This document shows, in pieces, positions 2,672 through 46,469 of a stretch of DNA of 64,000 nt. The position numbers and the translations under genes were made by a program. Below the pieces are notes generated by a model. That model was not told where the DNA came from and did no database searches. It saw only the letters and a list, made by a program, of their open reading frames with translations. How positions within the stretch are numbered: the stretch's first letter is position 1; each line of letters opens with the position of its first letter. The stretch is from Alphaproteobacteria bacterium. GTDB taxonomy: Bacteria; Pseudomonadota; Alphaproteobacteria; Caulobacterales; Maricaulaceae. The DNA lies in the NCBI GenBank assembly GCA_016124675.1, contig WGNG01000004.1:62001-126000 (forward strand), written 5' to 3'.

Positions 2672-3647
2672 ACTCCCTCCGTTTCGGCCAGCGCCGCAGC
2701 GCCGAGCAAAGCCGCCGCGTCTGACAGGATCAGGCGCACCGGAATCGCTTCAACATAGCGCGTCATCGGGCCGCGCCGCACCCGGCGCGCGTCAAAAGCG
2801 CTCGCCTCCAGCAGCGGGCGGATGCGCGGCAGGATTCCTCCGGCGAGATAGGCGCCGCCCCGCGCGCCGGTGATCACGCAGACATCGCCGGTGTAGGCGC
2901 CGAGGCAAGCGCAGAACAGCATCACCACCCGGCCTTCGAGGCTCGCAGGATCGGCCATCGCGCCGGCGGTGATCTCTTCAGGGCGCGCGCCGGGCCAGAC
3001 CCGCCCCTCAATGGCGCACAGCGCGCGGTGGATGTTCACAAGGCCCCGTCCCGACAGGATGCGCTCCCAGCTGACGAAGCCGTGCTCGCGCGCGATGTAT
3101 TCGCCGACGGCGATTTCCTCTGCGGTGCGCGGGGCGAAGCCGGCATGGCCGCCTTCAGTGGCGATCACGCGCCAGCCGCCGGGGACGGGCGCCAGCAGGC
3201 CGAGGCCCAGGCCCGTGCCCGGTCCGAGTACGGCGACCGGCGCGTCCGGCGCGGCTTGGCCGGCATTCAGGACGGCGATCTGGTCGGCCGGGCAGAGCGG
3301 CGCGCCGCGCGCCTGGGCGGCGAAATCGTTCACCGCCACGAGGCGCTCGAGACCCAGCTCGCGCGCCAGCGCTTCGGGATCGAGCTTCCAGGTGGCGTTG
3401 GTCAGACGCACCTTGCCGGGCGTCACCGGCGCGGCGATGGCGAAACAGGCGCGCTGCGGGCGCTCTCCGCCACAGCTTTCCAGGAAGGCCAGCGCCGCAT
3501 CGCGCAGGTCCTCAAAGTCCTCATTGCGGAAGCGGCGCACATGGCTCAGCGTGAAGCCGGCCTCGCACGACCCGTGCGCCAGCGCGAACCTTGCATTGGT
3601 GCCGCCGATATCGGCGGCGAGATAGGTCGCGGCCCCGCGGGCAGGCT

Positions 3648-41872: not shown

Positions 41873-42998
41873 TCTGGTCACGGGCGCAGGCGCGCTGGCG
41901 CTCTCTGCGGCCGCTGCGGCGGCCTTGCCCGGCGCAGCGCGCGGGCAGGCGCCCGATCCGCGCTATTCGGCCTGCGCGCTGCAGGTCGTGTGCGATGCCG
42001 TCAATCAGGATGCGAGCGTGGAGGCGGCGCGCGCGCGCATGATGGCCTCGATCGCGCGCATTGGCGGTCAGATCGCGGCGTCCAAGGGTTTCCTGCGCAC
42101 CTTCAACGGAACCGAGCTCAAGCTCGTCTGCCTGCCCGAATACTTCCTTACCGGTTTTCCGCTGCGCGAAAGCCGCGAGGAATGGAAGGCCAAGGCGGCG
42201 CTCGACATTGGCGGCGCCGAATATGAGGCGCTGGCGGCGCTGGCGCAGCGTCATGGCGTGTATCTGGGCGGCAACGCCTATGAGAACGACGAGAACTTCC
42301 CGCAGCTCTACTTCCAGACCAACTTCCTGATCGCCCCAAGTGGCGAGACCGTGCTGCGCTACCGGCGCATGATCTCGCTCTACACGCCCACGCCCTTTGA
42401 TGTCTGGGACCGGTATCTCGACATTTACGGGTATGACGCGGTGTTTCCCGTGGCGCGCACCGAGCTTGGCGTGATCGGCTCGATTGCGTCGGAAGAGATA
42501 CTGTATCCCGAGATCGCGCGCATGCAGGCGCTCAAGGGCGCTGAAATCTTCCTCCACCCGACCTCGGAGGTCGGCTCGCCCCAGCTCACCGTCAAGGACC
42601 TCGCCAAGCGCGCGCGGGCCATCGAGAACATGGCCTATGTGGTGTCAGCCAACTCCGCAGAAATCACCGGCACGCCGGTGCCGTCCGCGTCCACCGACGC
42701 CATGAGCAAGATCGTCGACTGGAACGGGCGAGTGCTGGCCGAGGCGGGTCCGGGCGAGAGCCTCAACGCCAATGCGATCCTGGACCTGCCTGCCCTGCGC
42801 GCGGCCCGCGACCGCACCGGCATGAGCAATCTGCTCACCCGCCTGCCGCTGGCGGCGTTTGCGCCGGGCTATGAGAGCGGCGTCTCTCAGGAACCCAACG
42901 CCATGGCGGATGGGCGGATGCTGACGCAAGGCGAGGCGATAGAGCGCCAGCGGGCCCGGATTGAGGCTTTACGCGAGGCCGGGATGTTCGGCGGGTAA
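41856..42998 (+). CDS. Tat-exported nitrilase-superfamily protein lacking the catalytic Cys (homologue 2)
   Basis: A 380-residue carbon-nitrogen hydrolase fold protein with a twin-arginine signal (TTRRDLVTGAGALALSAAAAAALPGAA). The Glu site is CLPEYFLTGF. The Lys site reads LRYRRMISLYTP (Arg in place of Lys), and the Cys site reads IASEEILYPEIAR, placing Ser212 at the Cys position. So two of three catalytic residues are changed. ALKGAEIFLHPTS and ENMAYVVSANSAE are normal family motifs. Start 41856 has AGGAG upstream. It probably ends the operon. Confidence 0.85.
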   Translation: MTTRRDLVTGAGALALSAAAAAALPGAARGQAPDPRYSACALQVVCDAVNQDASVEAARARMMASIARIGGQIAASKGFLRTFNGTELKLVCLPEYFLTGFPLRESREEWKAKAALDIGGAEYEALAALAQRHGVYLGGNAYENDENFPQLYFQTNFLIAPSGETVLRYRRMISLYTPTPFDVWDRYLDIYGYDAVFPVARTELGVIGSIASEEILYPEIARMQALKGAEIFLHPTSEVGSPQLTVKDLAKRARAIENMAYVVSANSAEITGTPVPSASTDAMSKIVDWNGRVLAEAGPGESLNANAILDLPALRAARDRTGMSNLLTRLPLAAFAPGYESGVSQEPNAMADGRMLTQGEAIERQRARIEALREAGMFGG

Positions 42999-43077: not shown

Positions 43078-43309
43078 TCAGGTTCTGATGAGCCGGTCTT
43101 CCAGACCGTCACGTTCGCGTCCGCCGAACACGGCCGCTGCGCAGGCGGCGAAGGCGCCGATCAGCAGGGCGAGAGCGGTGGCGATGGCGAGCGTGGCGCT
43201 GGCCGCGCGGGCTTCATCGACGGTTTCCCGGGTTTCGGCATGGGCGGTGCCGATCGCATCGAACGCTTCCTTGACACGCCCGTCAGCCTGAAAGGAGGCG
43301 CCGGCGCGC
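43078..43309 (-). pseudogene. C-terminal remnant of a membrane protein gene (no start codon)
   Basis: On the minus strand a frame reads GRVKEAFDAIGTAHAETRETVDEARAASATLAIATALALLIGAFAACAAAVFGGRERDGLEDRLIRT and stops at 43078. It has one hydrophobic helix followed by GGRERD, like the C-terminal end of a family of multi-helix alphaproteobacterial membrane proteins. The frame is closed by TAG about 25 codons upstream of this quoted part and has no ATG, GTG or TTG. The ORF track therefore misses it. I read it as a truncated gene with its terminator still in place. Confidence 0.55.
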
Positions 43310-43380
43310 GGCGTTGATTTCGCTCCCCGCCGCGCCGGTTTGCGTGTAGACTATTCGCCTCACGGGACAGGGAGGCGGCG

Positions 43381-44412
43381 TTGAGCGGATTGCCGGACTG
43401 GCGCAAGGCGGTGTCTGAGAACGATGCGGAACGCCGTTCCATTGCGGCCATGCGCGAGGAGATGGCGGTCTTGCGCGCCGCGCTGGACCTGCAGGTCCCG
43501 GCCAAGCGGGCTGTGGGGCGCAATCTTCTGGTGGCGACGTGGAATGTGCGCGCCTTTGGCGGCCTGACGCAGGCCTGGCGCTCGGAAGACAATGACAGCC
43601 CCAAGCGCAACTGGCGGGGCCTGGCCTATATCGCCGAGATCGTGTCGCGCTTTGACGTGATCGCCCTGCAGGAGGTGCGCGGCGAGTTCAAGGGCCTGCG
43701 CGAGCTGATGAAGACGCTGGGGCCGGGCTGGCAATTCCTGATGACCGACGTCAATCGCGGCGCGGCGGGCAATGATGAGCGCATGGCCTATGTGTTCGAC
43801 GCGGCGCGGGTGCGGCTGTCGGGCCTGGCCGGCGAGCTGACCGTGCCGGACGATGACAAGGTGCTGGCCCGGCTGGGCGTGGAGCCCGGCTCGCCGTTCC
43901 GCCAGTTTGCCCGCAGCCCCTATGCGGTGAGCTTCCAGGCGGGGCGCGAAACCTTCATCCTGGTCACCATGCATGTGCTCTACGGCAAGGGCTATGCCGA
44001 CCGGACGCCGGAGCTCAAGGCCATCGCGGCCTGGCTGAAAGACTGGGCCAAGGACACGGCGAGCTGGGGCCATTCGCTGATGGTGCTGGGCGATTTCAAT
44101 ATCGACCAGCAGGGCGATGTGAACGATCTGGCTTTCCGCTCCACCGGGCTCTACGTGCCGCCCGAGCTCGACGGCCTGCCGCGCACGGTCAGCTTCAAGG
44201 CCGACGGCAAGCCGCCCAAATATTACGACCAGATCGCCTGGTTCTGCGAGGAGGCCGGGGAGTTTGCGCTGGGCATGGAATTCCTGAGCGCCGGCGGCTT
44301 CAATTTCAGGGACTTGCTGTTCCAGGACGAACCCAAACTCACCGCCTAATCGATGAGCTGGCGGGTGAGCGATCATCTGCCGCTCTGGTGTGAATTTGCG
44401 GCGAGGCGGTAG
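43381..44412 (+). pseudogene. Endonuclease/exonuclease/phosphatase family protein, interrupted near its 3' end
   Basis: An EEP-fold nuclease or phosphatase: ATWNVRAFGG, the Glu in VIALQEVRG, LVTMHVLYG, and GDFNIDQQGD are all present. The frame stops at TAA (44347-44349), but the same frame continues SMSWRVSDHLPLWCEFAARR before TAG at 44410. SDHLPLW is the conserved final EEP motif that carries the catalytic Asp-His. So a single nonsense codon separates the catalytic His from the rest. The 322-residue product (43381-44349) would lack activity unless the stop is read through. A TTG start at 43381 follows GGGAGG. Confidence 0.7.
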
Positions 44413-44418
44413 GGGGGC

Positions 44419-46092
44419 TCACCCGCCCGCCCCCATCTGCGCCAGCGCGGCGTGAATATCGCTGACCGTCACCGAGCCTTCGCCCACGGCGCTGGCGACG
44501 CGCTTGACCGAGAGGGCGCGTACATCGCCCACGGCGTAGACGCGTTCCAGGCTGGTCTCGTAGGGGCTGGGCGGGCGGTTGCGGCGCCAGCCTGCGGCGG
44601 CGAGATCGTCCGGAGTGAGGGCGGCGCCGGTCTTGACGAAGCCGCGCGCGTCGCGCGCGATCCTGCCGGGCAGCCATGCGGTGAAGGGCGCCGCGCCGAT
44701 GAACAGGAAGGCGAACGGGGTGTCGAGGCGCACTTCGCCGCCGGGCGTGGCGAGGGTGACAGCGGTCAGGCGCAGATCTTCGGGCCGGGCAGCGCCGTTT
44801 GAGTGGAGGGCGGAGATTTCGGCCTCCGGGTGGAGGGTGATGTTGGAAGTCTCTTTGAGCCGGCGCACGAGATATTCCGACATGGTCTCGCGCAAATCCG
44901 GGCGCCGGTAGATCACGTGGACGCGCTTTGCGGTGCGCGCCAGAAACACCGCGCCCTGGCCGGCGGAATTGCCTGCGCCCACCACGCATACTTCCGCGCC
45001 GGCGCACAGCTGTCCTTCCAGCGCCGAGGCGCCGTAATAAATGCCCGCGCCCTCCAGCGCCTCGAGGCCTTCAAGGGGCAGGCGGCGGTATTGCGCGCCG
45101 GTGGCGATCACCACGGCGCGGGCGATCAGCGTGCGCCCGTCGCGCATGGTCAGGGCGTAACGGCCGTCATCGCGCGGCTCCAGCGCCGCGGCGCGCACGG
45201 GCGCGGCCAGGCGCACGCCGAATTTCTGGGCCTGGACGGCGGCGCGCTCGGCGAGCTCGCGGCCCGACACGCCGGTGGGAAAGCCCAGATAGTTTTCGAT
45301 CTTGGAGGAGGATCCGGCCTGACCGCCGGGCGCCTCGGCGTCCAGCACGACAACCGACAGGCCTTCGGACCCGGCATAGACCGAAGCGGCCAGACCCGCA
45401 GGCCCGGCGCCGACCACCACCACATCCACCTCGGCCTCGTCTGGCAGGAGGCCATAGCCCAGCGCCTCGGCAAGCGCGTCCACATCCGGCTGGCGCATCA
45501 CCCGGGCCGCGCCCAGCACCACGGCCGGCAGGTCAGCGCGGGCCAGGCCCATCGCCTCCATCACCGGCTCCGCCAGCGGGTCGCTCTCAGGATCGAGCCA
45601 GGCGTGGGGCGCGCCCTGGCGGGTGAGAAAGTCGCGAAGGGCGAAGAGCTGGCGGTCATAGGGCGCGCCGATGACGATGAGGGCGCCGGAGCGCGACGAC
45701 ACGGCGAAGGCGCGCCGGGCGGTGAGGGTGCGCACGAAAATGTCGGACAGCTCGCTGTCTTCCACCAGCAGGCGCTGGAAGCGGGCGAACGGGATGTGCA
45801 GCACTTCGCCAGCCTTGCCCATCAGGGTGCGCGCCATCACGGACGCGCCGGTGAGCACAGAGATGTCGCCCGCGAACTGGCCGCGCTCCATCCAGCCGCG
45901 CCGCACCGGACCGGTGGGGGAATCGATGAAGATGTGGGTTTCGCCCGAAAGCGTGACGAGCATGTCCACGCAGCGCTCTCCAAAGGCCGACAGGACCGCG
46001 CCCGCCTCATGGCGGCGCACCTCGCCCCAGGCCGTCAGGCGGGCGAGCTGTTCATCAGTAAAGGTGTAATTGATGTCCGGTGTTGGCTGCAT
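44419..46092 (-). CDS. FAD/NAD(P)-dependent thioredoxin-reductase-like protein with cyclic-nucleotide-binding domain
   Basis: A 557-residue fusion. Residues 1-130 form a CRP-type cNMP-binding domain (MLVTLSGETHIFIDSP, RGQFAGDISVLTG), then a glutaredoxin-like bridge (SGALIVIGAPYDRQLFALRDFL), then a thioredoxin-reductase-like flavoprotein (VVVGAGPAGLAASVYAGSEGLSVVVLD, VVGAGNSAGQGAVFLA, YAVGDVRALSVKRVASAVGEG). The redox CxxC of true TrxB is absent (IYYGASALEGQLC). The electron acceptor is unknown. Start at 46092 has GGGAG upstream. Confidence 0.92.
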   Translation of the reverse strand: MQPTPDINYTFTDEQLARLTAWGEVRRHEAGAVLSAFGERCVDMLVTLSGETHIFIDSPTGPVRRGWMERGQFAGDISVLTGASVMARTLMGKAGEVLHIPFARFQRLLVEDSELSDIFVRTLTARRAFAVSSRSGALIVIGAPYDRQLFALRDFLTRQGAPHAWLDPESDPLAEPVMEAMGLARADLPAVVLGAARVMRQPDVDALAEALGYGLLPDEAEVDVVVVGAGPAGLAASVYAGSEGLSVVVLDAEAPGGQAGSSSKIENYLGFPTGVSGRELAERAAVQAQKFGVRLAAPVRAAALEPRDDGRYALTMRDGRTLIARAVVIATGAQYRRLPLEGLEALEGAGIYYGASALEGQLCAGAEVCVVGAGNSAGQGAVFLARTAKRVHVIYRRPDLRETMSEYLVRRLKETSNITLHPEAEISALHSNGAARPEDLRLTAVTLATPGGEVRLDTPFAFLFIGAAPFTAWLPGRIARDARGFVKTGAALTPDDLAAAGWRRNRPPSPYETSLERVYAVGDVRALSVKRVASAVGEGSVTVSDIHAALAQMGAGG

Positions 46093-46193
46093 CGTCCGCT
46101 CCCGCTGCGGCGACAGCGCCGTAAGGGCGAATATGGCGGGGCGGGCGGGCAAGCGCCAGAGGGCGATGGGGCCAGGGGCACAGGCGGTGATCG

Positions 46194-46469
46194 TCACTGG
46201 TTGTCGTCCTGATCGCCCTTGTCCGGCGGCGCCATGGGGTCGTGCTTGCGGCTGGGCGGGAACATCACGGCGATGGCGATCTGCACGCTGATGAAGGTGG
46301 ACGAGATCAGGAAGACGAGCATCAGGCGCAGGACCGTCCCTTCAGTGCTGGCGCGGGTAAGGGTGCGGATCGCGCCCACGTCGAGGACGAGGATCAGGGT
46401 GGTGAACGTCACCCCGATACAAAAGCCGATCAGGCCGTGGCGCAGGATGAAGCGGATCAGCGGCGGCAT
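46194..46469 (-). CDS. Small two-helix membrane protein, unknown
   Basis: A 91-residue protein with two hydrophobic helices (LIGFCIGVTFTTLILVLDV and LRLMLVFLISSTFISVQIAIAVMF) and a polar C-terminal tail (PPDKGDQDDNQ). I recognise no named family, although similar short inner-membrane proteins are common in alphaproteobacteria. It lies upstream of the cNMP-binding flavoprotein gene on the same strand and may be cotranscribed with it. Confidence 0.75.
   Translation of the reverse strand: MPPLIRFILRHGLIGFCIGVTFTTLILVLDVGAIRTLTRASTEGTVLRLMLVFLISSTFISVQIAIAVMFPPSRKHDPMAPPDKGDQDDNQ

Follow-up and report, generated by a model that had tools for sequence, protein, structure and literature searches.

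A probable recent nonsense mutation ahead of the SDH motif of an EEP/DNase-I-like gene

The window, a 64,000-nucleotide stretch of a Maricaulaceae genome, carries a gene of the EEP (endonuclease/exonuclease/phosphatase, DNase-I-like) family in which a TAA codon interrupts the reading frame just before the catalytic SDH motif. The stop is probably a recent nonsense mutation private to this lineage, in which one C-to-T transition converted CAA to TAA in a dispensable and patchily distributed gene. A preliminary description had reported a nonsense codon ahead of the SDH motif of an EEP frame, and the DNA, the coordinates, and the reading are as it gave them. The features concerned are the following:

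43381 to 44349, plus strand: truncated EEP open reading frame, TTG start, 322 amino acids, ending at TAA
44347 to 44349, plus strand: premature TAA, a Gln codon in close orthologues (CAA in genomes G011 and G012)
44350 to 44409, plus strand: former C-terminal coding segment of 20 codons, with the SDH motif (residues D331 and H332) as well as the last beta strand
44410 to 44412, plus strand: original stop codon TAG (TAA in G011, TAG in G012)

Origin of the premature stop

The DNA at the site reads ...CTC ACC GCC TAA TCG ATG AGC TGG CGG GTG AGC GAT CAT CTG CCG CTC TGG TGT GAA TTT GCG GCG AGG CGG TAG. Past the TAA at 44347-44349, the EEP frame stays open for 20 codons, SMSWRVSDHLPLWCEFAARR, up to the TAG at 44410-44412, and the 20 residues encoded there are exactly the C-terminus of the orthologue in G011, the closest relative. 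The orthologues in the congeneric genomes G011 and G012 are 94% and 93% identical, respectively, over the whole protein and have frames open to the common C-terminus, and the orthologue in G028, from another genus of the family, is 83% identical over the whole protein, is likewise open to that C-terminus, and has Gln at the site with no stop. The comparison with relatives, proposed in the preliminary description, thus found an open frame with a Gln codon at the site in all three. Because the 20 codons after the TAA match the C-terminus in G011 and three orthologues are open with Gln, the interruption is not a matter of chance.

The codons around the site are GCC CAA TCC in G011, CCG CAA TCC in G012, and GCC TAA TCG in the window. 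Since the relatives carry CAA or Gln, the stop appears to have been made by one C-to-T transition on the window's own branch. In a family search of 137 genomes, 25 had a match, and an internal stop was found only in the window's copy and in none of the other 24. Moreover, a stop at the window's site was absent from the 97 other homologues examined. Of the 97 extracted homologue reading frames, a single one, that of Neolewinella aurantiaca (L034), lacks an in-frame SDH-type C-terminal ending, and the motif as searched fits 95 among these homologues plus G028; two of the three homologues outside it carry the variants SNHLP and SDHQL. Three options had been offered in the preliminary description, namely a recent nonsense mutation, a sequencing error, and a readthrough site. 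With an ancestral CAA in the relatives and a stop private to the window, the first option (or the second) is supported and the third is disfavoured.

The age of the stop was approached by polarising changes with G011 and G012. Over codons 1 to 322, synonymous and non-synonymous changes number 21 and 9 on the window branch and 52 and 18 on the other two branches together; the ratios are the same (Fisher p=0.81), and therefore decay has not yet accumulated. After the stop, the window branch has 5 synonymous and 0 non-synonymous changes, with a P of ~0.001 if all were neutral. Thus, most of these changes arose while the segment was translated, and the counts, which bear no sign of relaxation after the stop, are compatible with a very recent event. 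From the sequence, the 5:0 pattern would mean a very recent stop, an erroneous one, or continued translation of the segment.

Consequences for the EEP enzyme

What the truncated product lacks can be read from the family to which it belongs. Pfam, the family alignment, and the predicted fold all back the reading of the gene as EEP, made in the preliminary description, and the loss of the SDH motif. The 322-residue product matches Pfam PF03372 (Exo_endo_phos) with 31.4 bits (cut-off, 24.5; E=2.1e-7), and it matches an NCBIfam nuclease model weakly, far under that model's cut-off. Two further PF03372 genes are present in the window's genome, and each outscores the interrupted gene. In an alignment of 37 homologues, W54, N55, Q97, E98, H198, G237-N240, and D283 are invariant and are present in the window, and the N-terminal EEP motifs Asn (WN), Glu (QE), LVT.H, GDFN, and YDQI are all there. 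All 36 other aligned homologues have H332, and nearly all have D331. The C-terminal S-D-H motif of the window, by contrast, lies outside the translated frame, after the TAA, where it can be reached only by readthrough.

The AlphaFold2 model of the read-through form (pLDDT 87, pTM 0.90) is a two-layer beta-sandwich of the EEP fold. A Foldseek search with this model matched DNase1L3, TDP2, and CNOT6L, and a sequence-profile search with the EEP protein found DNase I. The last strand of the model, residues 335 to 340, is encoded after the stop together with D331 and H332. It is established for DNase I, APE1, and exonuclease III that the His of the SDH motif takes part in catalysis at the active site as a general acid/base and that the Asp sets the orientation of the His. 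We infer with some force that the 322-residue product is inactive, as both the general-base His and the last strand of the beta-sandwich are missing, and perhaps it is unstable too. The start of the gene differs as well, being TTG at 43381-43383 in the window and ATG at the same place in both G011 and G012. The TTG is possibly a further sign of weakening, and expression may be lower.

Taken in order, a recent nonsense mutation would act as follows. A C-to-T transition would have turned the ancestral Gln codon CAA into TAA on the window lineage alone, and translation would end at UAAU. The resulting product of 322 residues would be without the catalytic Asp-His pair and the last strand and would be inactive, and the EEP gene would stand at the start of pseudogenisation.

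Sequencing error, readthrough, and reinitiation

An error in base calling or assembly, or a variant picked up in culture passage, is an unlikely source of the stop; the real codon would then be CAA and the enzyme intact. That the whole gene, post-stop segment included, otherwise looks functional speaks for such an error, as does the draft state of the assembly (23 contigs). The genome is, however, 99.95% complete, and the neighbouring aligned genes, over ~19 kb, are free of other stops and frameshifts in real genes. The EEP gene is the sole interrupted one among the neighbouring window genes alignable to relatives, in a census that covered the stretches fetched from those relatives; one other stop listed in the comparison belongs to a frame that lies antisense to a stronger gene candidate. 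A consensus sequence seldom carries single-base substitution errors. A frameshift or larger mis-assembly was rejected, as window, G011, and G012 are collinear over all 343 codons with zero indels.

Readthrough or suppression of the stop, by which a minor active long form would be made and the stop would lower expression while function was kept, is quite unlikely. The excess of synonymous changes after the stop favours it, and many in-frame stops in bacterial genes are reported to keep dN/dS below 1 and have been argued to be tolerated through readthrough (Belinky et al. 2021, PMC7918605). A stable hairpin just downstream of the stop (z=-3.3) also seemed to favour it, but the same hairpin is found in G011, which has CAA. 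Thus, the hairpin did not arise for recoding, and although significant, it was rejected as a recoding signal and belongs to the coding sequence itself. The context of the stop, moreover, is not weak: UAA followed by U is described as the signal at which bacteria terminate most efficiently (Wei and Xia, PMC5289835). Nor was a suppressor found, as none of the 39 tRNA genes called by ARAGORN, a set that is incomplete (Trp and Ile tRNAs missing), has a UAA-reading anticodon. Finally, no relative shares the stop, so the conservation expected of a programmed site is absent. In a narrower form of the same idea, low-level readthrough of UAAU would supply enough active enzyme, the stop would serve to reduce dose, and the C-terminus would still be under selection, which we regard as very unlikely.

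Two other routes to readthrough were considered and rejected. Stop reassignment across the genome does not fit, as TAA also terminates the neighbouring CN_hydrolase gene (42996-42998) and a tRNA reading UAA was not found. A low-scoring tRNA candidate on contig C3 of the window's genome (~184-245 of locus L149) was discounted as a suppressor; it corresponds to a tRNA's 3' half with the anticodon TGT (Thr; loop TTTGTAA), and ARAGORN did not call it. This candidate may be what an integrated element left behind at its attachment site.

Termination followed by reinitiation at ATG 44353, so that a separate 19-residue C-terminal peptide complemented the truncated body, is barely credible: the ATG does begin 4 nt past the end of the TAA, but its Met is simply inherited from the intact protein (G011, G012, and G028 have it too), a Shine-Dalgarno-like sequence is absent ahead of the ATG, and a peptide of 19 residues with a single beta strand is not likely to fold by itself.

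An accessory gene compared with known systems

A recent nonsense mutation, which we favour, would sit in a gene that most members of the genus lack. A close EEP copy was found in 2 of 14 genus mates (G011 and G012) and was missing from the other 12. G011 has the downstream neighbours of the EEP gene in common with the window. Homology to G012 covers the gene only (43339-44421), as does homology to G028 (43339-44401), and the immediate surroundings are otherwise unrelated in the stretches compared. We note that the EEP gene (43339-44421) is thus a gene-sized block of homology whose surroundings differ in G012 and G028, as though it had been transferred as a single-gene cassette. There is nothing remarkable in a patchily distributed accessory gene being lost through a nonsense mutation.

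The flanks of the gene hold two further frames. On the minus strand at 43081-43293, a 71-residue frame has a hydrophobic tail and lacks a clear start codon; it resembles what is left of the 3' end of a gene for a membrane protein, and it had zero matches in the 14 genus mates. On the same strand at 44419-46197 lies a thioredoxin-reductase-like flavoprotein gene, the N-terminal part of which has a weak cyclic-nucleotide-binding match under the Pfam cut-off.

Compared with the EEP superfamily (PF03372), the intact relatives have the expected residues, N55, E98, H198, D238/N240, D283, and S-D331-H332 in window numbering, and the fold matches those of DNase1L3, TDP2, CNOT6L, and Bacteroides EEP structures. 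The window copy differs in that it stops before D331 and H332 and thus is without the defining catalytic motif in its normal frame. A second interrupted member of the family is found in Neolewinella aurantiaca (L034, ~3560-3600), where TAA stands in place of the TAC of relatives before GDFNI (WATDINA, the stop, and then DQNLICLGDFNI) and the frame is otherwise open, running to SDHYPLWTEFSIR. As in the window, one TAA interrupts an otherwise open EEP-family frame; unlike in the window, the site lies before GDFNI and the lineage is another, so the event is independent. Single stops occur now and then in the EEP family at unrelated places, as expected of an accessory gene.

A nonsense pseudogene is expected to have a private stop where its relatives keep the ancestral sense codon, and the window's copy has this pattern. 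We conclude that the gene should be annotated as a probable nonsense pseudogene and as neither an active EEP enzyme nor a readthrough site. The case shows cleanly the very early inactivation of an accessory gene that is missing from most congeners, and it is otherwise ordinary. Like the bacterial single-nonsense pseudogenes described by Belinky et al. (2021, PMC7918605), it has a private in-frame stop, with the rest intact under past purifying selection. Among such pseudogenes the window case is nothing unusual; its stop falls, by coincidence, 20 codons before the end, where it removes the catalytic His.
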